NCBI RefSeq assembly: GCF_015277515.1
Contig: NZ_CP063767.1
Span: 1,860,001-1,924,000 of the forward strand
Source: Thermophilibacter immobilis
GTDB lineage: Bacteria; Actinomycetota; Coriobacteriia; Coriobacteriales; Atopobiaceae
DNA: 64,000 nucleotides
Direction of reading: 5' to 3'
The stretch's first letter is position 1, and each line of letters opens with the position of its first letter. A program made the translations under genes and the position numbers. Positions 9,641 to 29,556 of this stretch are shown one piece after another. The notes under the pieces are model-generated. The model searched no databases. It saw only the letters and a list, made by a program, of their open reading frames with translations, and was not told the origin of the DNA.

Positions 9641-9772
9641 GATACGAGTACCGGTGTGGTGAGGTGTATGGTTTTCCTAGCAGCGCTCTCAGCATCTCTG
9701 CTATCAATTAAGATACCTAGTAGTATTTCTGTCACAGGCGCTGCCAATAACCAAGGAGAGAAGAAAGACAAG

Positions 9773-12464: not shown

Positions 12465-12485
12465 TTATTCCCACTCAACTGCGGC
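12465..12485 (-). repeat. guaA 3'-end-like copy D (candidate att site)
   Basis: The minus strand reads AAVEWE and then TAA, close to the true guaA end (ATIEWE stop) at 27955. TTATTCCCACTC is identical to the first twelve bases of the guaA copy. In another frame the preceding codons read RYEITS, like the YDITS that precedes the guaA end. This copy would be the left boundary of the arsenic cassette. Confidence 0.55.
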
Positions 12486-14232: not shown

Positions 14233-14834
14233 GATGCACGCCTCGGATGGTAGGGGCACGTGCTGCCCAGGCACACGGTGTTCTTCGGCATCGTCTTGCA
14301 TAGGGGGAGCACGCCCAGCGTCTGCATATCGCAGCCAAACAGGTCATTGAAGGCTCTGGTCGCCGAGGCGACCGCGATGCGGGAGTCACGCTTGCAGCAG
14401 CGTGGCGCACCAGTCTTTGCGATTTCGGCCAGGATGCGTGCGACCATCGACTGGCCCTCCGACCAGCCTTCCTTCTCAAGGGGTTCGTTGCCCCGGATGA
14501 TGGCGTGCGCCATGCCCGCCGAGGCGGCCGCTCCGCATACGCCCCAGTAGGCGCAGGCGGCACCGGGAACGATGGCGGAACGCTGCCGCAGTTCCTCGAG
14601 GTCCGCTTGTAGCCGTTCATCGCGATCGGCGCCTCCGAGTGCATTCCGATAGCAGGTCAGCAGGACCGCGCCTACGATGAAATGGTGTATGGGACCGAAC
14701 GCATCGCATCGCGGATCGGCCATAACCTCCTCAAGCAGACCCGAGGGGCATGTGCCGTCGCTCGCCTCGCAGAGCTCGGCCACCCAGGCCGTTGGATCGT
14801 TCATCTCTTCCATGACAGGCTCCTTGTCGCTCAT
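14229..14834 (-). CDS. DUF5714 domain protein in ars operon
   Basis: The 201-residue protein is cysteine-rich, with [23 protein letters not shown] and a terminal [10 protein letters not shown]. These match the DUF5714 family, whose function is unknown. Family members often occur near redox or metal genes. The ATG at 14834 overlaps the arsA stop as ATGA, which decides the start, and the gene's own stop overlaps acr3 in the same way. Translation is therefore coupled through the operon, and a role in arsenic handling, perhaps as a thiol-containing carrier, is a guess from context. Confidence 0.75.
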
Positions 14835-16564
14835 CTCACATCTCCCGATGCGTTCCATGGTATGCCGACGGTCAGACCCTTCGACATGTCATCGATACGG
14901 TCGAGCCACTGTCGCTCGGAGGCGGCGCGGGCCCTGAGCATTGGGTCGGTCGCATCTCCCAGCGACAGGCACTGGTTCACCACCCACCACCTGCTGTCGA
15001 TACCCGTCCGGTCGAGGTCGTCGCGTAGGCGCTGCGCCTCGTAGACCGGTGTCGCCTCGGGAAGCGTCACGATGACGACCTCCGTCTGAGCTGGATCGTG
15101 CAGGCGAGGGAGCAGTTCTCTGACGGATTCGGGAACCTCGCCGCCGGTACTCTCCATCTGCTCGTCGTAGCTCTGCGTGCTCTCCAGCAGCAGAAGCGTA
15201 TGCCCGGTGGGAGCGGTGTCGATGACGACGACTTCCTCATCGGCTTTCGCGACGATATCGGCGAACGCTCGGAACACGGCGATCTCCTGGGTGCAGGGTG
15301 ACCTCAGGGACTCCTGGATATAGGAGAAGTCCTCATCGCCCATGGTCTTGCGCGCCGTGTCGAGCACTTCGGTCTCATAGGCTTCGAGTTCATGTTTCTC
15401 GTCGATATGGCTGACCGAGAGACCGGGTGTATCCAAATCGAAGTTACCCAGATGGTCGGCCGGATCGGTCGTCGTCAGACGCACCTTCTCCCCGCGTCTT
15501 GCGAGACCCTTGGCGATGTCGACGGCCACCGAGGTTTTCCCGACCCCGCCCTTGCCCATCGTGAATATGACGCGTCGGCCGCTTCCGGCGAGTTCGTCCA
15601 CCAGATCATCGAGCGAGCGGACGTCAGGACGCTCGACCTCGATTGACGTCATCAATCGGTCCGCCTCACCCTTCAGGAATCTGCGGAGAAAGTCGAGCCC
15701 GGTGACGTTATAGGACCTGAGCGGATTCCGATACATCCTCAGCCCCGCGAGGCCTTCCGGCATATGCTCGAGCGCCTTCTCCTGCGCATCGAGCATCTCA
15801 CCGGATGCCTCATCGGTGGCTTGCTCCAGCATGCCGTTCACCACGAGCATCTGGCAGACTATCCCGAGGTCCGAGAGCTCGGCACGCGAACGCGCCGCCT
15901 CCTCGAGCGTCGGGGTCTGCGGACGAGCGACGAGTACCATGCCGGTCTGTGTCACGTCGGCAAGCGTGGCCACCGCCTTGGCATAGGTTTCCCGTTTATC
16001 GCCCAGGCCGGAGAGCTGTCCCAGGCATGAGGTTCCGGTCGAGTTCTCGTCCAGATAGTTCGTCCACGCCGACGGGAGCTCGAGGGTCCTCAAGGTATGT
16101 CCGGTAGGTGCGGTGTCGAACACGATGCGGTCGTACCTAGTCGCAACATCGTTGTCGGTGAGCGCCCAGGCGAACCTGTCGAATGCGGCGATCTCGATGG
16201 TGCACGACCCAGAGAGCTGCTCCTCGATGTTCGCTATGGCGTCATCGGGAAGGATGCCGCGATAGGGCCCCACGACGTTCTCACGATAGGCTGCCGCCTC
16301 CTTGAGCGGATCGACATCCATCACGGTGAGGTTCGGGCAATCTTCTATCCTCGTGCCTTCCTCCGAGATCTCGGTCTCGAAGACGTCCTGCATATTGGAG
16401 GCCGGATCGGTACTCACGATGAGCACTCGTTCACCGGCGTCGGCGAACGCGACCGCCGCCGCACAGGAGACCGAGGTCTTGCCGACACCTCCTTTGCCTG
16501 TGAAGAACAGGTACTTGTAAGGTTCAAGCGCGTTTATATCGAAAGCATTCATCGTAGGTTGCAT
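14831..16564 (-). CDS. arsA: arsenite-transporting ATPase ArsA (two-domain)
   Basis: ArsA is the cytosolic ATPase that energises arsenite efflux. The 577-residue protein is a tandem duplication: a P-loop GKGGVGKT at residues 23-30 and again near 335, each half followed by a DTAPTGHTL signature. The cysteines needed for metalloid binding are present in both halves (SGSCTIE, RSPCTQE). I start at MQPTMNAF; an upstream ATG would overlap arsD. It normally works with ArsB but can also couple to ACR3. Here ACR3 is broken by a stop. Confidence 0.93.
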   Translation of the reverse strand: MQPTMNAFDINALEPYKYLFFTGKGGVGKTSVSCAAAVAFADAGERVLIVSTDPASNMQDVFETEISEEGTRIEDCPNLTVMDVDPLKEAAAYRENVVGPYRGILPDDAIANIEEQLSGSCTIEIAAFDRFAWALTDNDVATRYDRIVFDTAPTGHTLRTLELPSAWTNYLDENSTGTSCLGQLSGLGDKRETYAKAVATLADVTQTGMVLVARPQTPTLEEAARSRAELSDLGIVCQMLVVNGMLEQATDEASGEMLDAQEKALEHMPEGLAGLRMYRNPLRSYNVTGLDFLRRFLKGEADRLMTSIEVERPDVRSLDDLVDELAGSGRRVIFTMGKGGVGKTSVAVDIAKGLARRGEKVRLTTTDPADHLGNFDLDTPGLSVSHIDEKHELEAYETEVLDTARKTMGDEDFSYIQESLRSPCTQEIAVFRAFADIVAKADEEVVVIDTAPTGHTLLLLESTQSYDEQMESTGGEVPESVRELLPRLHDPAQTEVVIVTLPEATPVYEAQRLRDDLDRTGIDSRWWVVNQCLSLGDATDPMLRARAASERQWLDRIDDMSKGLTVGIPWNASGDVR

Positions 16565-16610
16565 AGCACCCTTCGTTCTACCAAGTGATCGCTCGCGTCG
16601 GATGACGACA

Positions 16611-17000
16611 TCAACAGCAGCAAGTGCCTTCATCGGACGCCGCTGGTGGGCAACAGCATGATGAATCCTCTGTGGCAGGTTCCGGTGCGGAGTTCAGTTC
16701 GAAGTCGAGCAGTTCTGATATCCGTTCGTTTGAAGGGTAGGAACCGGTTGCGACCACCTTCCCATCCACGAGCGTTATGGGAAGCGAATCGATGCCGAGT
16801 TCCTTCAGGATTCCCGCTACGGTCTCGTTGGTGACGAAGGCGTCCGGGTCGGATTTCAGGTTATGCCGTGATACGTAGTTTCCCGATTTGAGCACCTCCT
16901 CGACTACGGTGGCTACACGCAGCAGCTCGGGATCGATGCTCGGGCCGCAGAGCCCCGTATCACAGCACATCGCCGGTTCGAAGAACTCAAGCTTTTTCAT
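16611..17000 (-). CDS. arsD: ArsD arsenical metallochaperone
   Basis: ArsD hands arsenite to ArsA. The 129-residue protein has the essential CC pair and third cysteine (MCCDTGLCGP, residues 11-20), the conserved thioredoxin-like core, and further cysteine clusters at the C-terminus (SSCCCPP, GTCCC). The ATG overlaps the arsR stop as ATGA, so the two are translationally coupled. Confidence 0.93.
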   Translation of the reverse strand: MKKLEFFEPAMCCDTGLCGPSIDPELLRVATVVEEVLKSGNYVSRHNLKSDPDAFVTNETVAGILKELGIDSLPITLVDGKVVATGSYPSNERISELLDFELNSAPEPATEDSSCCCPPAASDEGTCCC

Positions 17001-17350
17001 TTCTTTTCCTCCATCTGTTCGTTTACCTTGATACTATCCGCGCAATTCCGTTTCGCAGCTTCGCAGATGCAATCCTCCTTTTCCATCGAGAGGTGCCCTA
17101 TGTAGCGGGCTAACTCCTCGAAACGGGTCGTATCGAGGTGGTAGCGCATCCACGGACCCTGTTTCTCGCCGAGCACAAGTCCGCAGCTGGTAAGCGCTTT
17201 CATGTGGTAACTCAGGGTCGATTGCGATATCTCGAGGTGCTCCAGCAGATCGCAGGCGCACATCTCCTCGCAGGAGAGCATGTCGACGATTTTCAGACGC
17301 GTCGCATCCGAGAGCACATTACAGACCGCAGCGCAGGTTCCATAGTCCAT
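16997..17350 (-). CDS. arsR: ArsR-family arsenic-responsive repressor
   Basis: The 117-residue winged-helix repressor has the metalloid-binding CxC motif in EEMCACDLLEHL, directly before the recognition helix ISQSTLSYHMKAL. It should bind the operator upstream of its own start and release on arsenite. It opens the order arsR-arsD-arsA-DUF5714-acr3. Further cysteines near both termini (GTCAAVC, DCICEAAKRNC) may contribute to sensing. Confidence 0.93.
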   Translation of the reverse strand: MDYGTCAAVCNVLSDATRLKIVDMLSCEEMCACDLLEHLEISQSTLSYHMKALTSCGLVLGEKQGPWMRYHLDTTRFEELARYIGHLSMEKEDCICEAAKRNCADSIKVNEQMEEKK

Positions 17351-17372
17351 CTGACCTCACTTTGCGTTTGAT

Positions 17373-17426
17373 ATATCGATAACTCTCAATAGATTATTCT
17401 AGGCATTATATCGATACCTGTCAATA
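17373..17426 (-). promoter_or_regulatory. ars promoter with two direct-repeat operators
   Basis: On the minus strand TTGACA (17419-17424) and TAGAAT (17396-17401) are separated by exactly 17 bases, a near-consensus promoter. Two copies of a 19-base element, ATATCGATAnCTnTCAATA, lie at 17373-17391 and 17408-17426, 35 bases apart. The upstream copy overlaps the -35 box and the other lies just downstream of the -10 box. They are probable ArsR sites. Confidence 0.8.
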
Positions 17427-17722
17427 TAGTTCGCTTATTTCTGCAAATGGATTGAAGTCGATTTTTTATTTTCCGAATCAATAACAATCGCCGTCTCGAG
17501 TTAATGGGCAAAATGTCCGGGTGCCCGAGTTGACGGCAATCAATTCGGGCGGCGATTCTGTGCATGGCGATCTGCGGTTATGAATGAATTTAGCAACCCA
17601 ATTAACTCCAGTATTGGAAAGGACACTGGCGCGAACATGGATTACGCGCAGCCTTGGTGCTTTGCTGCATGATAAACTTTGACAATGAGGTTTCTCGACA
17701 ACGAGTGCACATTCTGTGGCAG
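17427..17722. other. AT-rich gap between ars promoter and IS element
   Basis: About 300 bases separate the ars promoter from the left end of the insertion sequence. I see no gene, only AT-rich sequence. Confidence 0.4.
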
Positions 17723-19209
17723 TTGGGACCCCGGACGTTCCTCTGGACCACCGCTACGCCGCGTAGCCCAGCGCCGCGCGGTGCTCCCTCAGCGTCCTCC
17801 ATCCTAGCGCCTTCTTCGGCTTGCCGCCCCCGTGCCACTCGACGTGGGCGCCCAGCCTCTCGCGGAACTCCGCGAACGTCACGCCCCTCCAGTCGGTCCC
17901 GTGGAAGAAGTCGCTCTTGAGGGTGCCGAAGAACCCCTCGCACCTCGCGTTGTCCGGGCTCCTGGCCTTGCGCGACATCGAGCGCGCCGCGTGGCCGGCG
18001 GCGCACGCCGCCGCCCACTCGTCGGTCATGTACACCGCGCCCCCGTCGCTGTGCAGGACCAGCGGCCTCCCCTCCGTCGGGCGCACGGCGGCGACCAGGT
18101 CCCCGAGCGTGCCGAGCGCCGGCCCCGCGTCGGGGTGCGGGGACACCCTCCAGCACACCGGCCAGCCGTCGAAGCAGTCGACGGCCGCGCTGAGGTAGGC
18201 CTTGAAGCCGCCCAGCCGGAACTCGGTGACGTCGGTGACGCAGAGCAGGCCGGGCTCGGCGGCGTGGAAGTCGTGCGCCCCGTCCTCGCGGAGGGGCAGG
18301 TTGGCCGGCCTCTCGCCGCGCTCCCCGGCGTAGCTGCTGCACCTCGCCCTCCGTCGCACCTGGGCCGCCTTGCGGGGCACGAGGCCCTCCTCGCGCATCA
18401 CCCGGCGCACCACCTTCTCGGAGACGACGACCGGCGTGGCCATGTCGCCCTCCGCGAGGCCGCGCCAGGAGACCGGCTCGCCCTCCCCGCGCCTGAGGTC
18501 GGCCCACACGCTCTCGGAGCCGAAGGCGCCGCCGGACGCCTCGAAGGAGGCGCGGACGCGCGCCCTGAGGGCCGCCTCGGGGTCGGGCCGCGACAGCCTC
18601 GCCCGCTGCGAGAGGTAGGTGCTCTTGGGTATGGAGGGCGTCTCGCAGACGTCAGCGAGCCTCACCGCCGGGCTCGCCTCCCTGGCCGCCTGGCCCGCGA
18701 GGTACCTCTCCTCGCTGGTCAAAGAGCCAGGGCCGGGTGCTTTTAGGACGTCCAACACCGCCAGGGCCTCGGCGAGCCTGGCCTCGGCCACCCTCGCCCG
18801 CTCGGCCGGGTCCTCCGGCAGGTCGGCGCCCCAGTCGCGCCAGTCGGTCTGCCCCTCGCGCCCCTCGGTGCCGGCCAAGTCGGGCCCCCTTCCCTCCGTG
18901 CGCGCGCGTGCCGCGGGCCCGGGGCGGGGGCGCGCCCTCCGGTACGCGGGGCTGCCCTCGCCGTGGGCGCAGTGCATGCGGGAGGCCCGTTCGGGCATCT
19001 CGCGGGCGGCGAGCTCCCCCGCCTCCTCCATGCGCAGCCACCGTCTCAGGTTCCACTCGTTGGGGAACAGCGGGAGCCTGCGGCAGGCCTCCGCCACGCT
19101 CATCCCGCTACGGTGGAACTCCCAGAGTGTCCCCTCGCGCTCCCCTTTGGTATACATCCCGGGCTCCCTCCCGGACCAAGAAGGTCCGATCGTTCGTCCG
19201 GGGTCCCAA
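17723..19209 (-). mobile_element. IS3-type insertion sequence with 15-base terminal inverted repeats
   Basis: TTGGGACCCCGGACG at 17723-17737 is repeated as its exact reverse complement at 19195-19209. The ends enclose one transposase gene and give an element of about 1487 bases. No short target duplication is obvious in the flanks. It lies between the ars promoter and guaA-end copy C, and its GC content is markedly higher than the neighbouring DNA. Confidence 0.85.
17754..19157 (-). CDS. IS3-family transposase, single reading frame
   Basis: The 467-residue transposase has a helix-turn-helix at the N-terminus (EFHRSGMSVAEACRRLP) and an integrase core with the DDE residues in LCVTDVTEF, LVLHSDGGAVY and CEGFFGTLKSDFF. 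Most IS3 elements make this from two frames by -1 slippage, whereas here orfA-like and orfB-like parts form one continuous frame. The ATG at 19157 follows GGAGGGAG. Intact coding and matching ends suggest a recently active element. Confidence 0.9.
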   Translation of the reverse strand: MYTKGEREGTLWEFHRSGMSVAEACRRLPLFPNEWNLRRWLRMEEAGELAAREMPERASRMHCAHGEGSPAYRRARPRPGPAARARTEGRGPDLAGTEGREGQTDWRDWGADLPEDPAERARVAEARLAEALAVLDVLKAPGPGSLTSEERYLAGQAAREASPAVRLADVCETPSIPKSTYLSQRARLSRPDPEAALRARVRASFEASGGAFGSESVWADLRRGEGEPVSWRGLAEGDMATPVVVSEKVVRRVMREEGLVPRKAAQVRRRARCSSYAGERGERPANLPLREDGAHDFHAAEPGLLCVTDVTEFRLGGFKAYLSAAVDCFDGWPVCWRVSPHPDAGPALGTLGDLVAAVRPTEGRPLVLHSDGGAVYMTDEWAAACAAGHAARSMSRKARSPDNARCEGFFGTLKSDFFHGTDWRGVTFAEFRERLGAHVEWHGGGKPKKALGWRTLREHRAALGYAA

Positions 19210-19264
19210 CGAAACTCAGGAGTACAGTGCGGCACTCAAAAGTGCTGGTCAAAGCCCTATCGAC

Positions 19265-19285
19265 TTACTCCCACTCTATCGTGAC
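19265..19285 (-). repeat. guaA 3'-end-like copy C (candidate att site)
   Basis: The minus strand reads VTIEWE followed by TAA, matching the guaA C-terminus (ATIEWE). It begins TTACTCCCACTC, one base different from the guaA copy. It divides the arsenic cassette from the metallophosphoesterase cassette and is followed on its right by the heptamer module. Confidence 0.7.
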
Positions 19286-19300
19286 AAGGCAAGTATGAGT

Positions 19301-19601
19301 GTAGTCGGCACAGCGTCTGACCTGCGGTTCCTGTCACTCTTCGCTCTCGGGAAACGTGTAGTCACCGTGTAGTCGGGGATGACTACATGCCGTGTAGTCA
19401 CTTTCGAAGAGTATTTTCCGCCGACCGAAGAGTGATGCGTATGACCTGCGGAAACTCCGTCCGATTGCACGCAACTGACTACATGCCCCGAAACGAGTGG
19501 AGCGGTGCTGCATGGGGCTCGACCAGAGAGTGACAAATCCCGACCGAAGAGTGACACGTCTGACCTGCGGAAACGTGCCGTCTAGACAAGGCACTGACTA
19601 C
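19301..19601. repeat. heptamer array next to copy C (recombinase arm-type sites?)
   Basis: GTAGTCA or its complement, allowing one mismatch, occurs at 19301, 19358, 19369, 19380 (inverted), 19394, 19476 (inverted) and 19595 (inverted). The first six lie 36, 93, 104, 115, 129 and 211 bases from the start of copy C, the same offsets as in the module next to copy B. A second motif, GAAGAGTGA, also recurs. No protein is encoded. The remaining bases up to 19836 show nothing recognisable. Confidence 0.65.
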
Positions 19602-19836
19602 ACGAGATCAGAACGCTACGCATTAGGCAGAATCCCCATCGGCGCGCACCGATGGACGCAATGCTCACCTCTTACGGCAACCTCGCTATTGCGTCATAGG
19701 ACTTTGCCCGTTTCGAGCGCAAGCGCTCGTCCGCTACGCTAAACCCCGAGTGGCATGTCATTTATGAACTCTGCTATATGGCTGGCGCCCCATTCGGCCC
19801 CAAGCGCTAGAAGTCTACGGCGAGGAGTGAACATGC

Positions 19837-22713
19837 CTATGACGAGGAGCCGCCTTTTAGCCCGCCAACTGGGAGCGCGCCAGCCTTGCCAGCGTAGTCC
19901 AGCACCTCGTCACGCCAGATGCGGATAACGTCCTGGTCGAAGACGTACTGTATCGACCTCATGATGCGCGACGGTTCATACATCCTTGCGTCAGTATCGA
20001 TGACCGCATCGGGCACGGGAGCCAGGGACGTCGCTCTCTTTGAAAGGATCGGAAGAGCGTCGCCCTTCTTGGCTTTATCGAAACGTCCAAGCAGGTAGGT
20101 GCCATCTGAAGACACAGGACGCACCGGGGATGACTTGAGAAGAGCCCGGAATGTCTTGAAGAGCCTCCTCTCGGCAGTGGATTCCGCATAGTAATAGGAC
20201 ACCTTTCCGTCATAAGGATTCAGATACACATGGTTCCAGAAGTCCACGTCGACGATGCAGCCATGGATATCGCCGCAGCCCCCTACCGCTCGGACCTCCT
20301 TCGATATGGCGTTGAGGGCTCGCCTGTACGGCGCGAACGCGTTTCGAACGCCATCGGCATAACGGGACATGTTCTCGTAATAGTATTCCTTCGGGTGATA
20401 AAGACGGTTGAGGCGACCCCCGACCAGGAGATTCAGGTTAGCCCCGCTCGAGAACACGAACATGTATGTCCCATCGCACTTGAGCATCCAGATGGTCCCC
20501 TTACGCTTGAAAGGATCCATCGATATTCCGCGGCCGCGGCTGAAGTCCTCGTATTGCGCGGCCGTTATCTCGTAGATGCCGTCAGGCCATTCCTCGAACG
20601 GGTCGTATCTACCGCGAACGACAAGCTCGTCGAAGTGCCACTCGCGGGGCTCGTAGCCGACCTGGTTGTTTGAGAGAACAGTCGTCCCATCGTTCTTACG
20701 CAGAATGACGTTCCGGTGAGTGTGCCCGTTCACGTAGACCCAGTTGGGATTGAGGGCTACGTCCGACCAATCATGCACGGGATTATGGGTGAGCACGATC
20801 ACGCGACGGTCGCCGGCGCACCGCAGCACCTTCTTGTAGGCTGCCCGGAAGCGCTCCGCGCGCCTCACGTCCTCATCATAGTCGAGCGTTCCGCGGTAGA
20901 TGTCTCCGACCTCGGCGTTAAAAGTTGGATTCAGCGCAGAGAATCCCGTTCCCCCGAGCACGAGGAGCGTGGATTTGCGGCAGACCTCCGCGAGCTCTGC
21001 GTCGCCGGCATCGAGGAGAACGTCTTCCGGTATACGCCTGAGGTTAATACCCCTATGCATGACGATAAGGCTGTTGTCGAGCAGGTAGACGCCGAGCTCC
21101 TTTAACCTGTCACGGTAGCTCGCGATAACGTCGTCAATCGGTCGATTCGTCGTCTTCCCGTCAACGCCGAGATCCCACAATTCGTGGTTTCCCAGAACAC
21201 CTATTCTTATCATGTTGGGTAGGCCGCGACATAGCGCGTCATAGAAAAGGGCAGTCAACTCCAATCCATCCGCAACGTCTCCGCCGACGAGTACGACGCC
21301 TTGCCCATTGTTGACGACATGCATGGGCCCTATCCCTCTCTCGGATCCGACGCTGCCATAGGTACCGTCGAGAGAGTTGATCAGTTCAGCGACCTTCCCT
21401 TCGACCACCGGCCTCGCCTGGGAGAGAGTCATGCCGCCCAGTTTCAGCTGATGTTCGAGATGGAGGTCGGTGACATAATGGACGCGCAGCGAGGACTCGT
21501 CAGGCTCGTCCCTCACCACTAATTCTGGAGATTCACCGATTCTCACAATGGAGCCGTCTGGTGCAGCCGTTTTCGGAATCTGCAACCCAGCAGCCGTCCG
21601 CAGCTTGGTTCTGTCCCGTGGCTGAGCCAGCTCTCTTTTTACCTCTTCAGGAAACCAATCGAGACTCACGCTGTCGCCGCCGCGTCTCCTTGCTTTGAGG
21701 CACATCTTCTTCGTACGAAGATGCCTCGGAACGTATTGCAGGGCGAGTGGGGACGAGTCGAGCGCCGCCTTAATGAGTCGACTGTTCTCGTTAGTCGGAG
21801 GTGCGATGAGACCGTAGTACTTCCAATTCTCCGAAATTGACTTGACACACGCCTTGATGTCGACGAAGTCATCGGGCACTCCCGAGATACTGGCGGGGAA
21901 CAGCGATACGGACAAGTCTGCAAGCCCCTGGGACATGAAGGCGTCCGGGACGCGGTTTATCGGCCATGACAATTGCCAGGGACGGAAGCGCAAGTAATTG
22001 TCGCTCGTTGGTGGAACCTCTTTCAGAAGCGCCTCAACCGGATGGCGTATCGCCGATTCAGCGAGCTCGCGACTCATAAGCTCAGGCGCTACGCTTGAGA
22101 TGGCCGCGCCGTTTTTCCGTACAGCCAGTTCGCAGAGCTCTCGGCCGGCATCGCCTTTCAGGAGTTCTTTAGGGACATACGCGAGGGCTGGGTCAAATCC
22201 GCCGTTCACGCGGTCGTCGTTGCTGACTGCCACCTTGCATAGGGCAAAGTCGACGATACGGGCCGGCACATTTCGGAGCGCCTGCCCATTGTTCGAGACG
22301 GCCGCCATGCAGATGTCGTACGAGCGGTGCTCCTCCGGTACAGACGAGAGCGCCCCTCCTTCGTTCGACACCGCCGTAAGGAATATCGCATCATCGAGGT
22401 ACTTCTCTGGTACATAGCGGAGGTTGTGCGCATCCCTCTCACATGCCTCTAGGCACAAATCGTACGTCATCGCGCGTTTCGAGGCGAACTTGAGGACGTG
22501 AAGCTGGGCTGCATAGCGTTGTCGCCAGTCATTCATGTCGTATTCGAACTCTATGGCCTCGCGGAGAATTTCTTCGGTCTGTCCGCGCTTTCCCATCGCC
22601 TTTAAGCCCCACGCACCGGGATACGAGGCAATGTCTGGAGCGGCAACACTGTCTATTTTCCTCGGAACCAGACCGAGAGACTGCTTAAGGGAGTTGCTAT
22701 TGTCCGAATCCAT
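19837..22713 (-). CDS. calcineurin-like metallophosphoesterase with N-terminal DUF4116-like repeats
   Basis: The 958-residue protein begins with about 350 residues of repeated units such as AVSNEGGALSSVPEE, AVSNNGQALRNVP and AVRKNGAAISSVAPE, which look like DUF4116 repeats. Residues about 410-670 form a metallophosphoesterase with every metal ligand block: TDLHLEH, VGGDVAD, GNHE, LTHNP and GHTH. The last 290 residues are unrecognised. The enzyme should hydrolyse phosphoesters, possibly nucleic acid or nucleotides. It is the only large gene between guaA-end copies C and B, so it is probably the cargo of that cassette. A role in phage defence is plausible but unproven. Confidence 0.85.
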   Translation of the reverse strand: MDSDNSNSLKQSLGLVPRKIDSVAAPDIASYPGAWGLKAMGKRGQTEEILREAIEFEYDMNDWRQRYAAQLHVLKFASKRAMTYDLCLEACERDAHNLRYVPEKYLDDAIFLTAVSNEGGALSSVPEEHRSYDICMAAVSNNGQALRNVPARIVDFALCKVAVSNDDRVNGGFDPALAYVPKELLKGDAGRELCELAVRKNGAAISSVAPELMSRELAESAIRHPVEALLKEVPPTSDNYLRFRPWQLSWPINRVPDAFMSQGLADLSVSLFPASISGVPDDFVDIKACVKSISENWKYYGLIAPPTNENSRLIKAALDSSPLALQYVPRHLRTKKMCLKARRRGGDSVSLDWFPEEVKRELAQPRDRTKLRTAAGLQIPKTAAPDGSIVRIGESPELVVRDEPDESSLRVHYVTDLHLEHQLKLGGMTLSQARPVVEGKVAELINSLDGTYGSVGSERGIGPMHVVNNGQGVVLVGGDVADGLELTALFYDALCRGLPNMIRIGVLGNHELWDLGVDGKTTNRPIDDVIASYRDRLKELGVYLLDNSLIVMHRGINLRRIPEDVLLDAGDAELAEVCRKSTLLVLGGTGFSALNPTFNAEVGDIYRGTLDYDEDVRRAERFRAAYKKVLRCAGDRRVIVLTHNPVHDWSDVALNPNWVYVNGHTHRNVILRKNDGTTVLSNNQVGYEPREWHFDELVVRGRYDPFEEWPDGIYEITAAQYEDFSRGRGISMDPFKRKGTIWMLKCDGTYMFVFSSGANLNLLVGGRLNRLYHPKEYYYENMSRYADGVRNAFAPYRRALNAISKEVRAVGGCGDIHGCIVDVDFWNHVYLNPYDGKVSYYYAESTAERRLFKTFRALLKSSPVRPVSSDGTYLLGRFDKAKKGDALPILSKRATSLAPVPDAVIDTDARMYEPSRIMRSIQYVFDQDVIRIWRDEVLDYAGKAGALPVGGLKGGSSS

Positions 22714-22763
22714 GCGGCCAACCTTTTCGATATCGCGAAACGCTGGTAACAGCTACGAATATG

Positions 22764-22808
22764 ACAAATTGTCTGACGATTTGTCAGGTTCTGACGATTT
22801 GTCAGGTT
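22764..22808. repeat. TGACAAAT-type tandem repeat upstream of the phosphoesterase gene
   Basis: CTGACGATTTGTCAGGTT occurs twice in tandem (22773-22790 and 22791-22808). A related inverted half-site, GACAAATTGTC, precedes it. The block lies 50-95 bases before the start codon, where operator sites would be expected. Confidence 0.65.
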
Positions 22809-23717
22809 CGGTTCTTTGTCTGCCTCCATTATGACGCGCCGGATCAAGCCGTCGAACGTCACGGCCGGGAACTCGAGGGAGGGGCGCAAGCCGCCCGCGT
22901 TCTCGTACCGGGCGGCTTACAAACCGCGCCTCGATACGCACCGCCAATGTGCGTCGCCAAAAGACCGCTCGACGCAAACGCCAATGGCGCCTTGGGATGC
23001 AAGGCTGAATTTGGGCATCGGATTCCAAGATTCAGCCGCCCCACCCGGTGTTGGCGTTAAGCCGAGGGCTGCTGCCAGAAGTGCGGCTGCACATCCGGAA
23101 ACCTTATGCTTTGGAGAAACGTCGCCGCATCGTCAGGGCCACCGGAAATCACCTCACATCCGCTTCGCCCGCAGCTCCCTCAGTACGCCCTTCTTGAACT
23201 GCGACCAGCCGCCAAAGAACTTCTCGTCGGTGGCCGTGGCCCGTCATGAGCGGCCCCGCGTGCAGCGGGATGTGGGAGCCCCCTGTCGCGCAGGTTGTCC
23301 GACCCCCGATTCGTCTACGAAGCAGCCCTCTTCTTCCAAGGGGGCTCCTATATAAAGAAAACGCCGGGAAAAAGGCCCCGGCACTTGGGGGCCATCCTAT
23401 TGAGATCGCCGGTTAATTCATACCACGGGCGGGGCTGTCGAGGCCCTGCCCGCGAACCGCCGGGGCGCGGGCACCGGCGCGTCCCCGGCACAGGGACCGC
23501 ACCGACCTGGTGGTGAAGCGCTTGCTACCACTCGGTACTGTTTAACCGCGGTTCGCGCCGGCGCCTTCCTTGAAGATGGCCTATAAAGATCTCGAGATGC
23601 CCCGCACGGGATGCGGGCACCAGCCGATCAGGAGGACATCCAGAAGAGAGAAGCCGAATCTAGGACATATAGGCACACGGCGCGGAGGCCGCCGCCGGAG
23701 GCCCGCAGGGGCCGTCA
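22809..23717. other. 900-base region without a convincing gene
   Basis: Several open frames exist, but none has a credible start or recognisable motif, and they overlap on both strands as expected at this GC content. Small inverted repeats are present (for example GGCTGAAT/ATTCAGCC near 23004-23038). It may be decayed or regulatory DNA of the cassette. Confidence 0.4.
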
Positions 23718-23750
23718 TAAAAAAGGCCGGCTCTAACGGAGCCGGCCTTG
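23718..23750 (-). terminator. rho-independent terminator just beyond copy B
   Basis: AAGGCCGGCTC and GAGCCGGCCTT form an 11-base-pair stem with a 5-base loop, followed on the minus strand by TTTTTTAT. No gene on that strand ends here except the guaA-like tail of copy B, 21 bases away. It could be the original guaA terminator, displaced when the next cassette integrated. Confidence 0.75.
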
Positions 23751-23770
23751 CGGAGCATGACCTTTTCGGC

Positions 23771-23791
23771 TCACTCCCACTCGATTGTTGC
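23771..23791 (-). repeat. guaA 3'-end-like copy B (candidate att site)
   Basis: The minus strand reads YATIEWE followed by TGA, the same six final residues as GuaA. TCACTCCCACTCGAT differs from the guaA copy at two of its first fifteen bases. It separates the phosphoesterase cassette from the AbiE/HEPN cassette and is followed on its right by the heptamer module. Confidence 0.75.
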
Positions 23792-23806
23792 ATAGCCCGT
23801 TTTGAT

Positions 23807-23988
23807 GTAGTCAACAGGGCAGTTGAGCTGGTATTCCCTCCGCTCTCTCGTCGCGAAAACCATATAGTCACCCCGTAGTCATCGATGATTACATACTCCG
23901 TAGTCACTTGGGGAGAGTATTTTATGCCGAACGAAGAGTGACATGTTTGACCTGCGTAAACGCAGTTCGATTGCGCGCAACTGACTAT
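23807..23988. repeat. heptamer array next to copy B (recombinase arm-type sites?)
   Basis: GTAGTCA-type heptamers, direct or inverted and allowing one mismatch, start at 23807, 23864, 23875, 23886, 23900 and 23982. These are 36, 93, 104, 115, 129 and 211 bases from the start of copy B, identical to the spacing beside copy C. The shared block also includes AGAGTATTTT and GAAGAGTGA, and extends to about 24070. Confidence 0.65.
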
Positions 23989-24125
23989 ATGGACGGGTAT
24001 AGCGGCGGCGGGGCGAGGTGTCTCCCAACTCAAGAGTGACGATTCTCGAGTGAAGAGTGACAGCTCTGAGCTGGTGGAATACATTGGCGAGATCGCTGAG
24101 TGGCTACAAGCCGTCGGACGCCTTG

Positions 24126-25061
24126 TTACTCGGTCCCAAGCATCTTTCTAATGTTCTGCAGCTTCCACTGGGCCTCCGGACTGGCAATGGCCGCACGCGC
24201 CGTTGTCTCGTTCTCGAACAGCAGGGCAGGCTCGAACGCCCCTCTCGAGAATCGACCGAGATATTCTTCCTCGACGTCCGTCTGCGGCAGAACGTAGGCG
24301 GAAACGAACTCGCGCGCAGTGCCGACAAGCTGTTCGAGAACGGGAGATTCTTCATCCCTCCGGAGCATGGGCAGGAGCTGCTCCTCGAGCTCGCGTCCCC
24401 TGCCGGCAAATCGCTCGGGACGGCTCTCGAACCCGTGCGGGAACGTCGCCGAGAGCGACGCGTAGAAGAGGATGACCTTATGGGCAACGCCGCGCTCCTC
24501 AACGCCTCTGGCGTCGAGCACGCGCTTCAAGTTCGCGATATCGTATAGGTCGCGCACCTTCACGCGGTCGAAGAACGCCTTGACCTTGCCTCCGGCGAGC
24601 TCGACATCGGCGAAGAGCGGGACGCGGAGCTCTGGCATGAGGGTCGAAGCCCTGCGTTCGATGGCCATCAGCGGGGAGCGGTTCAAATAGATGCAGTCGA
24701 TCTTCACGTGGTCGGGCCCCCACTGCGACCTGTAATTGAGGATGAAGGTCCTACCGGCATGGCCACCTGGAGCCCCGGAGACGGCATATCCTTGGGAGCG
24801 CGCCACCTCGCCGATGGACCTCTCGATGGCCGGCCTCTCGGCAAGCATCGCGTCCCTGTCGAGCGCGCCGACGTACGAGAGGTCGATGTCCACTGACAGC
24901 CTCGGCACTTCGAGCATGAACAGGTTGATCGCGGTCCCGCCGTGCAGCGCCCACTTGCCCCTGAGCATGGGGTGCTCGTCGAGCTCCGCGAGCAGGTCGA
25001 GAAGTCTCTCGACCTTGTCTAGCGTGCGGGGCGGGAACTCCCTCACGAGCGCGTTATCCAC
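24126..25061 (-). CDS. abiEii: AbiEii-type nucleotidyltransferase toxin
   Basis: The 311-residue protein has the DNA polymerase beta-like core of AbiEii toxins: LHGGTAINLF (GG at residues 41-42) followed by LSVDIDLSYVG (D58, D60), then KVRDLYDIANLKRV. Toxins of this class transfer nucleotides to tRNA or other acceptors and stop growth, giving abortive phage resistance. I chose a GTG start at 25061 because it follows GAGG and overlaps the antitoxin end by 19 bases, as expected for a coupled pair. An in-frame start further upstream would lie deep within the antitoxin gene. Confidence 0.9.
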   Translation of the reverse strand: MDNALVREFPPRTLDKVERLLDLLAELDEHPMLRGKWALHGGTAINLFMLEVPRLSVDIDLSYVGALDRDAMLAERPAIERSIGEVARSQGYAVSGAPGGHAGRTFILNYRSQWGPDHVKIDCIYLNRSPLMAIERRASTLMPELRVPLFADVELAGGKVKAFFDRVKVRDLYDIANLKRVLDARGVEERGVAHKVILFYASLSATFPHGFESRPERFAGRGRELEEQLLPMLRRDEESPVLEQLVGTAREFVSAYVLPQTDVEEEYLGRFSRGAFEPALLFENETTARAAIASPEAQWKLQNIRKMLGTE

Positions 25062-25804
25062 GACATCACCTCTTCCTCGTCTTCGGGCAGGACGAGCCGC
25101 CAGCTGGCGACCCAGCCCGCCGATCCCGCGCTCGCGGGCCCCAGGCGGTAAGGTCCGGGCCCGAGTCGACCTTCGAGCAGCGACAGGCTCTCCTCGCCCA
25201 CGTGCCATTCAGCCTTCTTCGCGGACAGCAGCCACCCGACGCGAGAAGCCATCGAAGGCCCCGCATCGACGGCGAGCCCGACTAGCTCCTCCACGTCGAG
25301 GTACACGAAGGCGGTCAGGCTCCGCACCGCCTCCTCGACCCCTCCCGCCAGGGCCGGCTTGCCCAGGCAGTCGACTACCGTCTGCTCCCTGGTCGTGGCG
25401 AGGTACGTGCCCGCGGGCGACCTCATGGTCTTCGACCTCGCGTTTCCCACCGGGCCACAGGGGCAGTAGGCGACGCCCCGAAAGTCGAACCTGGACCGCA
25501 CGGAGTCCGAGCGGAAGCGGCACGCGAAGCCCGCATTGTGCGCGACGCCGTGCGACTCGAGGGCCGAGTGGTACGAGACGACCGCGCCGGCGTCGAGCAC
25601 CGCGACGACCTCCGTCTGCTCAACGGGGACGTCTTCGAACCGCCCGTGGTTGGAGACGAGGAGCCCGCGGCGCACGCGCTCCACCGCCCCGGACCTCACG
25701 GCGCGGCGCAGCTGCTCCTCGGCCGCGCCCGCAGAATCCATCGCCTCGAGGAGCGAGGACGTGGTGAACACGTGATGGCTATCTATGTAGTCTGAGAACT
25801 TCAT
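25043..25804 (-). CDS. abiEi: AbiEi-type antitoxin/transcriptional repressor
   Basis: The 253-residue protein starts MKFSDYIDSHHVFTTSSLLE, an N-terminal winged helix typical of AbiEi antitoxins, followed by a larger domain (VVSYHSALESHG, REQTVVDCLGKP) and an AbiEi C-terminal region. It should neutralise the downstream nucleotidyltransferase and repress the operon. A remnant of a close relative is present at 10680-10977. No ribosome binding site is visible before the ATG, and TAAATT sits only seven bases upstream, so a leaderless transcript is possible. Confidence 0.88.
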   Translation of the reverse strand: MKFSDYIDSHHVFTTSSLLEAMDSAGAAEEQLRRAVRSGAVERVRRGLLVSNHGRFEDVPVEQTEVVAVLDAGAVVSYHSALESHGVAHNAGFACRFRSDSVRSRFDFRGVAYCPCGPVGNARSKTMRSPAGTYLATTREQTVVDCLGKPALAGGVEEAVRSLTAFVYLDVEELVGLAVDAGPSMASRVGWLLSAKKAEWHVGEESLSLLEGRLGPGPYRLGPASAGSAGWVASWRLVLPEDEEEVMSWITRS

Positions 25805-25921
25805 GCTGCATAATTTATCACGAAACCACAATTATTGGTTGGTATATCCATGGTCTATCAGCAGCAAATCATTCCGTGACGTCTCGAAACAAGCCTTGCC
25901 ACACAGCCAAGTAGGCAGAAT

Positions 25922-27181
25922 CTACTTCGTGGGCTCCGCTTCCTCGATGTCGGAAAACGGATCGACTCCGTACCTACTCACTTTCCATTCGCCCGGCTCC
26001 CACTCTGCTGCCGGGTCAACCCCGTCGAATCGGCAAAGGCGAATAAGCGCAGTCCACGATCTGTTTTGGAAACGGAGACTCACTTTTACAAGAGCAAGCG
26101 CAGCAGCAGGCCTGTCTATCTCCTCGATCTTGAATTCCTCAATCGGATGGGGCGAGTAGAGCTCCCTCGCCTGGCCCGCAAGCTTGCCGTACGTCATGCC
26201 CACGATGTTTGGGAAAAACGACCCCAAGGCCCCGTAATTTTTCGCCTTCCATGCCTCCAAGAAGTCGTTGCAGCTTCTCAGGACCTCATCGTCCGGGCCG
26301 ATGGGATGCTCGAGATCCACCTGGTGCTTCTTCCAAGCCTTCAACCTCATGTCGTTCTCAGCGTTCCGCCTTTTCATCTCGGAGATGCGCCTGAGCGTCT
26401 CAGCCAGGCTTTGACGGTTGCCTTCGCCCTCTTTCTGCGCCCTGGTTACAGAATCGACCCAATCCCCGACAGCGAATAGCATGCACCACGCCTTCGAGGC
26501 GACCACGTCGTTATCGTAATCAACGGTCATCCCGTGCATAATGCCGTTGCGGTAGACCTCGTAAACCGGCTTGTCCTCCCTTGCAAAAAAGGGTTTCGTA
26601 AACGTCTTTTGAACGGAAGGCAATCCATCCCACACGGTGGCGACGCAATCCTCGGAATGGAGTTCCCCGGCCTCCCTCGCGTGAAGCCCCTTCCTCTCGG
26701 CCTTGAAAGCGTCGTTCACGAACCCGTCCATCATGGAAACCGTCACGAGAACCGAACTGTAGTAGCGCCCTTCGAGATAGTCCCTCTCCGCCTTTTCCAG
26801 AAGCGGGATACGGGGGCGCATGTCGGGAAAACGGCTCAGCCGAGTGACCATCCAGTGAAGCGAGTCCTTCTCCTTGAGATATTCGACAAGTTCGCGCTCC
26901 GCCTCCTCGGGCGTAGGTTGCGCGACAACTTTGCGCATCCTATCCAGATTGAGGGTTTCAGAGAAGACCCAGTTCCTGTCGCCGAGCAGACGATAGAAGT
27001 CGTCTACGAGCGAAACGATAACATCAAGTTCATCATTGATACCACGTGCGGTTTTCCTAGCATCGCCGTTCCCCAACAGCCAGCCGAGAGCGCCAAGGGC
27101 CGACGCTTCTCGTCGCAGCTTCTTGACTTTAGGAAGGTCGCCAATCGATTCATGTGCGCGATGTTCCATATCTCGCCTCAT
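25922..27181 (-). CDS. unknown protein with HEPN-type R-N-x3-H motif, partner of an AbiEi-like gene
   Basis: I do not recognise the 419-residue protein as a named family. Its central region (about residues 125-245) is helical, with YYSSVLVTVSMMDGFVND and then YRNGIMHGMTVDYDN. R211-N-x3-H216 fits the R-x4-6-H active site of HEPN ribonucleases, and the spacing to the preceding helix fits that fold. The C-terminal part (FLEAWKAKNYGALGSFFP onwards) resembles an NTF2/SnoaL-like fold. The ATG follows GGAGATTGAGGA and lies only 3 bases after the stop of an AbiEi-like gene. This is the place where the toxin sits in AbiE operons, but no nucleotidyltransferase motif is present. A toxin role is inferred. 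Confidence 0.6.
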   Translation of the reverse strand: MRRDMEHRAHESIGDLPKVKKLRREASALGALGWLLGNGDARKTARGINDELDVIVSLVDDFYRLLGDRNWVFSETLNLDRMRKVVAQPTPEEAERELVEYLKEKDSLHWMVTRLSRFPDMRPRIPLLEKAERDYLEGRYYSSVLVTVSMMDGFVNDAFKAERKGLHAREAGELHSEDCVATVWDGLPSVQKTFTKPFFAREDKPVYEVYRNGIMHGMTVDYDNDVVASKAWCMLFAVGDWVDSVTRAQKEGEGNRQSLAETLRRISEMKRRNAENDMRLKAWKKHQVDLEHPIGPDDEVLRSCNDFLEAWKAKNYGALGSFFPNIVGMTYGKLAGQARELYSPHPIEEFKIEEIDRPAAALALVKVSLRFQNRSWTALIRLCRFDGVDPAAEWEPGEWKVSRYGVDPFSDIEEAEPTK

Positions 27182-27184
27182 TCC

Positions 27185-27829
27185 TCAATCTCCAAGAATC
27201 CCCGAGTCCTCAACCAGACCTTGGTAGATGACCCGTCCGCATTCATTACCGTAACGACCTTCGAGCAGCCTCTGGAGCCTCCCGTAGTCGAAGTCGGAGT
27301 ACCTCCTCGAAGCGTCGCTCAAGGCGTCCGCCACGAGCGAGAGGTCCTCGTCGTCCACGACGAGGTCGAAGACGGTGCGCTCGGGGCGCGTCACGGGGAG
27401 CCCCGAGTCGAACGTCACCTCGTCGCGGGCCACTTCCCGCCTGACGAAGCTCGCCGACGGGTTCCTCGTGTTGATTCTCCTTGGGGCGTAGAGCCGGTAG
27501 GGCGAGAGCTGCAGATCTCCGATCCCGAGGAGGGCGGAGGCGGTGGACCCCCCGACGGCGATGCCGTCCCAATCCGCGACCCGCATCCTCTCGCGGGAGA
27601 ACTTCGCCGGGGCGGTGAGCTTCCATATCGCCGCCAGCTCGTCCGCGAGGGAGGAGCCGAACCCCACCATGCGGTAGGCGCCGCGCACGACGCGCTCGAG
27701 GCGGCCGGACTCGACAGCGTCGTGAAGGGCGTCGCGCGGGATGCCCATGCGAGCAGCCTGGGCCGTGGTGAAGACGCCCTCCGACTCGGAGAGCTCGGCG
27801 ATCTTCTCTATGTGGTTCGAATACTTCAT
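27185..27829 (-). CDS. AbiEi-like winged-helix antitoxin, second copy
   Basis: The 214-residue protein begins MKYSNHIEKIAELSESEGVF with TTAQAARMGI and RLERVVRGAYRMVG, the winged helix shared by AbiEi antitoxins. VGGSTASALLGIG and RPERTVFDLVV match the following domain. It is shorter than the first copy and lacks its C-terminal region. It is followed by the HEPN-candidate gene, not by a nucleotidyltransferase. I start at 27829 because a strong promoter ends just before that ATG. The longer frame would run through an inverted repeat and into guaA. Confidence 0.8.
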   Translation of the reverse strand: MKYSNHIEKIAELSESEGVFTTAQAARMGIPRDALHDAVESGRLERVVRGAYRMVGFGSSLADELAAIWKLTAPAKFSRERMRVADWDGIAVGGSTASALLGIGDLQLSPYRLYAPRRINTRNPSASFVRREVARDEVTFDSGLPVTRPERTVFDLVVDDEDLSLVADALSDASRRYSDFDYGRLQRLLEGRYGNECGRVIYQGLVEDSGILGD

Positions 27830-27865
27830 GTTGCGATTGTAGGCTGTTTCCCTACAATCGCAACA
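27829..27865 (-). promoter_or_regulatory. promoter embedded in a 15-base inverted repeat; probable leaderless start
   Basis: TGTTGCGATTGTAGG at 27829-27843 and CCTACAATCGCAACA at 27851-27865 are perfect reverse complements with a 7-base centre. On the minus strand the arms supply TTGCGA (-35) and TACAAT (-10) with a 16-base spacer, and the ATG comes six bases after the -10 box. No ribosome binding site fits. A dimeric repressor bound here would cover the whole promoter. Confidence 0.7.
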
Positions 27866-27954
27866 TTCCGCTTCGACTAAAGGAGATGCGAGAGCAAAGC
27901 CTGATACGGAACGACGTTCGATGCCAGCTGTTGCCAGCCAATGCAAAATGTGCT

Positions 27955-27975
27955 TTATTCCCACTCGATCGTCGC
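27955..27975 (-). repeat. guaA 3' end, copy A (candidate att site)
   Basis: This is the true end of guaA, coding ATIEWE and TAA. Its first twelve bases TTATTCCCACTC, or close variants, recur as copies B, C and D. The guaA 3' end is a known integration site for genomic islands, and the three other copies suggest repeated integration here. Confidence 0.75.
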
Positions 27976-29556
27976 GGGCGGCTTGCTCGTGATGTCGTAG
28001 GCCACGCGGTTGACGCCGGGGACCTCGTCCACGATGCGCCCGGAGATGCGCGCGAGCACGTCGTAGGGAAGCTTCGCCCAGTCGGCGGTCATCGCGTCGG
28101 AGGATTCCACGGCACGCAGGATCACCGGGCGCGCGTAGGTGCGCTCGTCGCCCATCACGCCCACGGAGCGAATGTCGGGCAGCACGGCAAAGTACTGCCA
28201 GCAGCTGTGCTCGGAGTTGCGCTCGCCGGTCTGGTCGAACAGGCGCTGGTTGTAGGCGTCGAGCTCCTCGCGCACGATGGCGTCGGCGCCCTTGAGGATC
28301 TGAAGCTTCTCGGGAGAGACCGCACCGATGATACGGATGGCCAGGCCCGGCCCGGGGAACGGCTGGCGATACACGATGTGCGCCGGCAGCCCCAGGGCCA
28401 GCCCCAGCTCGCGGACCTCGTCCTTGAAGAAGTGGTCGAGCGGCTCGATCAGGTCAAAGCTCACGCCCTCGGGGAACGGGATCAGGTTGTGGTGGCTCTT
28501 GATCGTGGACGCCTTGCCGCCGGTCTTGCGCGCGCCGCTCTCGATGATATCGGGGTAGATGGTGCCCTGCGCCAGGAACTTCACCGGGCGGCCACCCTCC
28601 TCGAGCTGCTGTGCGACGGCGAAGAACTCCTTCCAGAACTGCGTGCCAATGATGCGGCGCTTCTGCTCGGGGTCGGTCACGCCGTCGAGCAACGCGGCAT
28701 AGCGCCCCTCCGCGTGGACGTGGATGAAGTCGACGTCGAACTGCTTGGTGAAGACCTCCTCGACCTGCTCGGGCTCGTTGGCGCGCAGCATGCCGTGGTT
28801 GATGAACACGCAGGTCATCTGCCGTCCGATGGCGCGCGCGCCCAGAGCCGCGACCACGGAGGAGTCCACGCCGCCGGAAAGGGCCAAGATCACGCGGTCC
28901 TCCCCCACCTTCTTGCAGATCTCCTCCACCTTCCGGTCCACGATGTTCTCCATGGTCCAGTCGCCGGAGAGGCCACAGATGTCAAAGAGGAAGTTGGAGA
29001 GCATCTGCTGGCCGTGCTCGGTGTGGCGCACCTCGGGATGGAACTGCGTCGAGTAGAGCTTGCGCGCGGGGCACTCCATGGAGGCCACGGGGCAGACCGC
29101 GGTGCTCGACGTCACGATGAACCCCTCGGGCGCGCGGCTCACGGCGTCGCGGTGACTCATCCAGACGGTCTGCTTGAGCGGCGTGGCGTTGAACAGAGCA
29201 GACTTGGGCGCGCGCTCGATCGTGGCCGGGCCATACTCCCCCACGTCGGAGTGGGAGACCTCGCCCCCCAGCGTCACGGCCATGATCTGATGGCCGTAGC
29301 AAAAGCCCAGAACCGGTAGGCCCAGGTCGAAGATCGCGGGGTCGATGGAGGGGGCGTCCTTGGCGTAGACCGAGGCGGGGCCGCCGGAGAGGATGAGCGC
29401 GCTGGGAGCCAGCTCGCGCAGCTCCTCCGCCGAGACGTCACAGGGGACGATCTCGGAGTAGACGTGCAGGTCGCGCACGCGCCGGGCGATAAGTTGTCCA
29501 TACTGGGCCCCAAAGTCCAATACTGCGACGAACTGCTCTGGCCTCGCTTCGCTCAT
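27955..29556 (-). CDS. guaA: GMP synthase (glutamine-hydrolysing)
   Basis: GuaA converts XMP to GMP using glutamine. The 533-residue enzyme has the glutamine amidotransferase domain (FGAQYGQLIARRVRD, LGFCYGHQ with the catalytic cysteine, HPEVRHTEHG), the PP-loop LSGGVDSSV, and the C-terminal dimerisation domain ending in ATIEWE. The gene is intact. All DNA downstream of its stop for about 19 kb is accessory, and no terminator is visible directly after it. Confidence 0.97.
   Translation of the reverse strand: MSEARPEQFVAVLDFGAQYGQLIARRVRDLHVYSEIVPCDVSAEELRELAPSALILSGGPASVYAKDAPSIDPAIFDLGLPVLGFCYGHQIMAVTLGGEVSHSDVGEYGPATIERAPKSALFNATPLKQTVWMSHRDAVSRAPEGFIVTSSTAVCPVASMECPARKLYSTQFHPEVRHTEHGQQMLSNFLFDICGLSGDWTMENIVDRKVEEICKKVGEDRVILALSGGVDSSVVAALGARAIGRQMTCVFINHGMLRANEPEQVEEVFTKQFDVDFIHVHAEGRYAALLDGVTDPEQKRRIIGTQFWKEFFAVAQQLEEGGRPVKFLAQGTIYPDIIESGARKTGGKASTIKSHHNLIPFPEGVSFDLIEPLDHFFKDEVRELGLALGLPAHIVYRQPFPGPGLAIRIIGAVSPEKLQILKGADAIVREELDAYNQRLFDQTGERNSEHSCWQYFAVLPDIRSVGVMGDERTYARPVILRAVESSDAMTADWAKLPYDVLARISGRIVDEVPGVNRVAYDITSKPPATIEWE

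Follow-up and report, generated by a model that had tools for sequence, protein, structure and literature searches.

Heptamer arrays beside guaA-end repeats in Thermophilibacter immobilis: putative attP arms on tandem, integrase-less cassettes

The guaA locus and its two heptamer modules

The stretch of the Thermophilibacter immobilis genome analysed here, hereafter the window, comprises 64,000 nucleotides (assembly GCF_015277515.1, contig NZ_CP063767.1, positions 1,860,001 to 1,924,000 of the forward strand) and contains guaA, the gene for GMP synthase, together with a series of core sequences that repeat the 3' end of this gene (Table 1). Leftward from the real guaA end, core D, these lie in the order C, B and a diverged copy, A, and so delimit three tandem units, C-D, B-C and A-B. 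In a search with the guaA-end pattern, core B at 19266 had no mismatch, while core C (23772) and the guaA end itself (27956) had one each. Cores B and C each head a non-coding module that is rich in heptamers related to GTAGTCA, and we consider it very likely, on comparative sequence evidence, that these modules represent the P' arm of the attP site of a guaA-specific tyrosine integrase, the heptamers being its arm-type sites. Throughout, G followed by a number denotes a genome and L followed by a number a locus.

An initial annotation of the window, made from its letters alone, had described heptamers at six identical offsets in the two modules (36, 93, 104, 115, 129 and 211, counted from 1 at the start of the guaA-end copy), had noted no net insertion or deletion between the modules and had pointed to a further shared motif. 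All of this was borne out. With a heptamer defined as any sequence that differs from GTAGTCA by at most one base, in either orientation, the six sites are present in both modules, and the identity of offsets extends to a seventh pair at offset 330 that the annotation had overlooked (exact in module B, one mismatch in module C). The further motif, GAAGAGTGA, occurs without mismatch at matching offsets 162 and 281, and module B alone has an extra, inverted copy. The annotation had also treated the whole interval 19265-24070 as non-coding; this holds for the modules, of about 340 bases each, but not for the 4.5-kb cassette between them, which carries a gene for a 958-residue protein. A count of heptamers over the window in bins of 300 bases gave a mean of 0.53 per bin, and the two highest bins, with six each, were modules B and C. 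The modules are 70% identical over 308 bases (BLAST) and are thus diverged homologues, so that chance in a single sequence is an unsuitable null and conservation across copies is the better test.

The same locus in relatives suggests how the array arose. In four of 25 same-genus loci (L159, L160, L166 and L168) guaA is joined directly to the AAA_14/DUF4143 gene that in the window lies to the left of copy A, and the joined junction aligns to the window sequence through copy A. Some 15.5 kb of tandem units therefore seem to have been added between guaA and this gene.

Table 1. Features of the guaA locus in the window (positions are those of the window; inv, inverted)
Feature	Coordinates	Strand	Basis
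guaA (GMP synthase); target site (attB side) at its 3' end	27955-29556	-	Pfam GMP_synt_C, GATase
Core copy D: actual 3' end of guaA; junction of unit C-D on the guaA side	27956-27972	+	Pattern search, core scan
Core copy C, guaA-end repeat	23772-23788	+	Pattern search, core scan
Core copy B, guaA-end repeat	19266-19282	+	Pattern search, core scan
Core copy A: guaA-end repeat, diverged (3 mismatches); distal array edge	12466-12482	+	3-mismatch pattern search
Module B, read as putative P' arm of attP	19266-19601	+	Heptamer/motif searches, profile
Module B heptamers	19301, 19358, 19369, 19380 (inv), 19394, 19476 (inv), 19595 (inv)		
Module B GAAGAGTGA	19334 (inv), 19427, 19546		
Module C, read as putative P' arm of attP	23772-24107	+	Heptamer/motif searches, profile
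Module C heptamers	23807, 23864, 23875, 23886 (inv), 23900, 23982 (inv), 24101 (inv)		
Module C GAAGAGTGA	23933, 24052		
Unit C-D cargo, no integrase	24126-27964	-	Pfam scans; related genes beside modules/cores elsewhere
AbiEii, in unit C-D	24126-25208	-	Pfam
AbiEi_4 protein, in unit C-D	25043-25831	-	Pfam
419-residue protein without Pfam match, in unit C-D	25922-27181	-	Pfam scan
Second AbiEi_4 protein, in unit C-D	27185-27964	-	Pfam
Unit B-C cargo, no integrase: 958-residue protein with DUF4116 repeats and calcineurin-like phosphoesterase domain	19837-22713	-	Pfam
Unit A-B: ArsR-type regulator, ArsD, ArsA, DUF5714, part of SBF transporter; rve transposase	12483-19265		Pfam
Decayed guaA-type tyrosine integrase fragment, matching residues 57-169 only	9273-9707	-	Pfam Phage_int_SAM_3

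Conservation and distribution of the modules

The conservation set consisted of 19 non-redundant modules, the window's two included, one near-copy having been removed from the 20 that were aligned; the 20-copy profile itself omits seven of 27 module copies, which are partial or diverged. Across the 19 modules mean information is 1.72 bits in the columns of heptamers one to six and 1.18 bits in the remaining columns; the heptamer value was reached by none of 20,000 random placements of six 7-base windows and by one of 317 shifts of the whole mask. The distance from core to sixth site is exactly 210 bases in 14 modules and 208, 205, 193, 174 or 172 bases in the others, and two copies are without the three middle heptamers. 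Conserved stretches are also found outside the heptamers, among them AGAGTATTT and AAGAGTGA, so that more than one protein may bind the module.

These alignments also bear on whether the module might be a conserved RNA, a regulatory leader or a small gene, which we regard as highly improbable. The heptamers at offsets 104 and 115 are inverted relative to each other and might pair to give a hairpin, but in its six base pairs only one two-sided change was seen (G-C to A-T, in one of the 17 sequences having the pair), together with several one-sided changes or breaks, and the heptamers on the integrase side of the core, described below, are direct repeats that do not form a hairpin. The spacing differences among modules (-2, -5, -17, -38 and -36) are in four of five cases not multiples of three. 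A conserved RNA had been named in the annotation as a finding that would speak against its proposal, and the window has no Rfam match at the gathering score. An RNA or small gene was rejected on these grounds: no Rfam match, mostly frame-breaking spacing differences and almost no compensatory change.

Modules of this type are present in other genomes. With module B as a query and an E-value cutoff of 1e-3, matches were obtained in 18 of the 140 family genomes, some through the guaA-end core only (in G044, G114 and G116 the match is limited to the core region). With the G039 module and a cutoff of 1e-6, 26 of the 396 class genomes gave a match, and these belong to three families and to 16 of the 153 genera; in neither search did any genome of the own genus match apart from that of T. 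immobilis itself. Among the fetched stretches the 20-module profile identified copies in 15 genomes, partial ones counted and weak matches in G120 (961877, without heptamers) and G122 excluded. Matches at GTCTCCCAGTC in G032, G078 and G025, which are not guaA-end cores, were also dropped; in two of these cases the match is the seventh heptamer of the neighbouring module, detected a second time. A module and a full-length guaA share a contig in 11 genomes checked (G000, G025, G028, G033, G036, G038, G040, G041, G052, G351 and G175). In all 11 the module lies downstream of guaA, 4 to 94 kb away, and, short reverse-strand echoes inside modules being ignored, all modules but one, in G041, have the orientation seen in the window. 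The two are on separate contigs in G027, G032, G039, G147 and G337. Complete modules elsewhere likewise come after a guaA-end core, some of these cores having mismatches, and the pattern does recur next to guaA-end copies in related genomes, as the annotation had anticipated, though not in all guaA islands.

Half-length guaA-like frames, corresponding to the C-terminal half at about 47-52% identity, were observed in G078 (C13:138260-139177), G079 (C25:105554-106465), G032 (C32:3886-4866) and G122 (C12). In G078 and G079 this is the only guaA-like frame; the module lies on a different contig in G078 but about 4 kb from the frame in G079, so that such a gene may be an alternative target.

The position of the modules is also relevant to the idea that they are transposon ends, or transfer or replication origins with iterons. 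Repeats about one helical turn apart do resemble iterons, and a NikA-like mobilisation frame follows the integrase gene of G052; against this, complete modules follow the guaA-end core in fixed register, the module and the mobilisation gene of G052 lie at opposite ends of their unit, and one module query was unmatched in plasmid and phage collections at E up to 1e-5. We attach very little probability to this explanation. A scan of viral contigs gave no relative of the integrase.

The integrase clade and the opposite arm

In heterobivalent tyrosine integrases such as lambda Int and Tn916 Int, short repeats flanking the core are read by an N-terminal arm-binding domain. The guaA system resembles these in having repeats on both sides of the core and in the Pfam domain Arm-DNA-bind_4, detected in the G052 integrase (E 3.5e-11), the only clade member scanned; it differs in having its own heptamer and its own layout, with P-side sites near -334 and -323 and seven module sites at +36 to +330. 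The N-terminal 64 residues of the integrase had no match among solved structures.

With an E-value cutoff of 1e-30, 83 of the 396 class genomes encode a relative of the G052 integrase, at guaA or elsewhere. Integrase-side arms were fetched for 32 matches, the closest plus a spread (340 to 3,600 bases, some shortened by contig ends), with integrase positions taken from Pfam and protein searches, and a 13-base weight matrix built from 77 module sites, with the G052 and G041 modules left out, was run over them. The arms of G052, G048, G120a, G337 and G041 scored highest, at 18.4-20.6 bits, and the best of the other 27, that of G326, reached 13.4 bits. The integrases of these five are at least 80% identical to that of G052 and form one side of one branch (support 100/99), and those of G052, G048, G120a and G337 are full-length. 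The exact pair TGACTAC-N4-TGACTAC was found in four of the five arms and in none of the other 27, the G041 arm having a single heptamer. In the four clade arms with a visible core (the G048 contig stops near the expected position) core and inner heptamer are separated by 323-324 bp, the heptamer being on the side opposite to the module. The second motif, GAAGAGTGA, is likewise present in all five clade arms and in no other scanned arm, those without a guaA match being limited to 1,600 bases. By identity a sixth clade member, G351, is among the 32 arms; repeats opposite the module are carried by five of six members, the broken G351 being the exception.

The annotation had raised the question of whether full elements with an integrase also carry the heptamers. 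They do, on the opposite side of the core and, among the arms examined, in one integrase clade only, many other guaA islands being different; the proposed likeness to arm-type sites of tyrosine recombinases is well supported. Whole units can also be followed. In G052 the integrase gene is in the guaA-adjacent unit, whose end is a full module (2656579); in G041 the integrase unit is bounded by a partial module (2551402) and a core (2566866). Two further units of G052 and the guaA-adjacent unit of G033, all without an integrase match, have both a P-side heptamer at -322 or -323 and a module at the far end, and G038 has a P-side heptamer at -326.

Other guaA integrases have repeats of other sequence at the corresponding place. 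In many of them these are TTACTCCC repeats; in G044 all seven copies outside the core within 80 kb lie between integrase and guaA, and others behave alike. The arm repeats are TGAACTCA in G314, ACAGTTCA in G300 and ATACTCCC in G326, where two of eight copies in 46.7 kb lie beside a distal core. In G041, G038, G351, G025 and G027, guaA-end cores are followed by a second class of distal module, which has a TGAACTCA-like sequence at about offset 36 and plausibly belongs, as an arm, to a different integrase clade. A single repeat code for each integrase type, shared by both ends of the element, applies to the GTAGTCA clade and probably to one further type; it was not seen for the TTACTCCC clade. 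No distal core or TTACTCCC array was found in 68 kb of G044, nor any distal core or array in roughly 40 kb examined in each of G217, G311, G338 and G275; G175 has other cores with no TTACTCCC array beside them, one of which carries GTAGTCA, and G057 has a second TTACTCCC cluster on the guaA-type left side of another core. No clear distal core carrying the respective repeats was found in G314 or G300. Two related guaA-type integrases were also seen directly in succession at L144 and L145 and in G300, G305, G314, G407 and G276.

It is important to consider that the heptamers may be bound not by the integrase but by Xis or a regulator of the element, for example the small XRE-type protein beside the integrase, and may set the direction of recombination without recruiting Int. 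An XRE-like protein is indeed read from the sequence between integrase and core in clade members, two distinct motifs, GTAGTCA and GAAGAGTGA, recur in both arms, so that at least two proteins may bind, and the G041 arm retains a heptamer though its integrase has no normal N terminus. The distribution of the heptamer nevertheless follows the integrase clade, an arm-binding domain is present in the integrase and no Xis was identified; moreover, related integrases carry other repeats at the corresponding place, as expected if it is the integrase that reads them. We consider binding by Xis or a regulator unlikely.

Several observations weigh against our interpretation of the modules as integrase arms. 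The clade test comprises five integrases, of which G048 and G120a are near-copies; the G041 integrase is missing some 25 residues at its N terminus, precisely where arm binding is expected to reside, and that of G351 is broken and N-terminally truncated, its arm scoring only 9.6 bits. No convincing distal module was found for the integrase units of G120, G048 and G337 within the stretches examined, partial module copies exist in which the core half is missing, and a complete module of G041 (C1:2515944) is inverted, 53 kb from guaA and beside an AbiE block, presumably through an inversion or a second insertion. For most other guaA integrases no repeats were found at a distal end, and two-ended repeats were not seen for the commonest clade. 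The units of the window have no P-side heptamers at about -323, so that their attP may be incomplete, and the second motif, GAAGAGTGA, is not accounted for by this interpretation.

Integrase-less cassettes and related systems

Neither unit B-C nor unit C-D has an integrase or transfer gene among its larger frames, as judged by Pfam scans. Both units lie between guaA-end copies, with module B or C respectively at the distal end, and A, B, C and D form a tandem series, features that they share with cis-mobilizable elements (CIMEs). Homologues of the AbiEii, AbiEi and 419-residue proteins of unit C-D are encoded beside a module in G041, G078 and G079 (65-87% identity over the matched parts), and an AbiEii fragment lies beside a module in G039 and G040, these five genomes representing two other genera. 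Homologues of the second AbiEi_4 protein, encoded at the other end of the cassette, were found beside cores in G040, G052 and G041. The left flanks of the cassette cores differ, as expected if the cassette has been placed next to different neighbours.

This recurrence is pertinent to the possibility that the modules are inherited debris, that is, functionless old attL arms of decayed elements that are alike through recent common descent. Related cassettes beside modules in two other genera, and heptamer columns conserved over the background with mostly exact spacing, are unlike debris; on the other hand, the T. immobilis genome retains only an integrase fragment, the other end of the window's units has no matching heptamers, copy A is diverged and partial modules occur elsewhere. 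We regard debris as a rather unlikely explanation of the modules in general, although for the window's individual copies it can still be true. The integrase fragment, which lies outside units B-C and C-D, is 54% identical to the G052 integrase and was the sole strong match when the own genome was searched, three weak matches lying elsewhere; it scores equally to members of the GTAGTCA clade and to the TTACTCCC-type integrase of G311. No intact cognate integrase is encoded in the T. immobilis genome, so that movement of cassettes in this genome would depend on a helper entering from outside.

The left flank of core B (19160-19265), which is the end of unit A-B, closely resembles the guaA-side flank of the TTACTCCC-type integrase element of G044, and flanks of this type were picked up by module-profile scoring in G044, G114 and G116. 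The array in the window thus seems to mix units of two att types. The transposase gene of unit A-B (17754-19235; rve, HTH_21), which we take to be IS3-like, ends against core B, and relatives with 33-44% identity are encoded in the fetched stretches of G032, G039, G040, G041 and G351. Short repeats such as TGCCAGC..AATGCAAAATG or CTAGATGG lie immediately to the left of cores (for example at 27915-27955 in the window) and recur between genomes; these are possibly further protein sites.

Our working model is that the N-terminal arm-binding domain of the integrase would read the GTAGTCA heptamers while its catalytic domain would cut the guaA-end core. After integration the module would mark the distal edge of the new unit, the guaA end would be re-formed at the proximal edge, and successive insertions at guaA would stack units in tandem. 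Cassettes such as those of the window would borrow the integrase of a related element in trans, and units B-C and C-D are probably mobilised, by excision and movement in trans, when such an element is present. Judged by its sequence, the array is an accretion array of CIME-like cassettes, a variant of the CIME.

The comparisons that follow refer to excerpts of the published accounts. Tandem accretion and CIMEs, elements that have lost integration and transfer genes, are already known (PMC5704250). The units of the window are like CIMEs in retaining att sites without integration genes and in lying in tandem at one target gene, and differ in being small cassettes with conserved arms in several genera, more like a non-autonomous class, their transfer being putative. 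In Dehalococcoides, islands lie in tandem downstream of ssrA, bounded by copies of its 3' end, and 15 islands without an integration module have been suggested as possible CIMEs (PMC3146451). The arrangement of integrase-less units between target-gene end copies is similar, but the Dehalococcoides islands use a CcrB-like serine recombinase at ssrA, with a 15-bp motif beside the repeat (PMC3146451), whereas the present units carry an arm array and are matched to a tyrosine integrase acting at guaA. The 3' end of guaA is also the target of GIsul2 and CR2-sul2, with the core GAGTGGGA, and the GIsul2 integrase is reported to excise not only the entire island but also an inner unit with an att copy at each end (PMC9376610). 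In that case the integrase is within its own island, the host is of another bacterial group and no heptamer array is described in the excerpt (PMC9376610). The element ATE-1 of Trueperella pyogenes is, like those considered here, an actinobacterial element with a tyrosine integrase at the guaA 3' end (PMC5704250), the comparison being one of published descriptions. In the library searched, no paper was found that has both Coriobacteriia and guaA, and in a broader search neither Eggerthella nor Collinsella was named among the matches listed. A conserved arm array on integrase-less cassettes, matched to one integrase clade, was found in none of the excerpts compared.

We put forward, as a tentative proposal that is somewhat less likely than not, that the Coriobacteriales host a dedicated class of non-autonomous guaA cassettes, which would be short and integrase-less, would carry a conserved one- or two-sided arm array, would be captured in tandem at guaA and would be moved between genera in trans by an integrase clade with a fitting arm-binding domain, several classes being present per array and their own repeat codes (GTAGTCA, TGAACTCA and perhaps TTACTCCC) acting as a tag of cassette-helper compatibility. 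Integrase-less islands are usually recognized through short direct repeats only and are hard to distinguish from debris. The cassette end described here carries a readable code that may name the helper integrase, which would allow cassettes and helpers to be matched by sequence across the Coriobacteriales. This bears on the question of whether integrase-less islands move in trans and what determines their partner, and offers a way to map the genes that such cassettes may carry, those for AbiE defence being one example.

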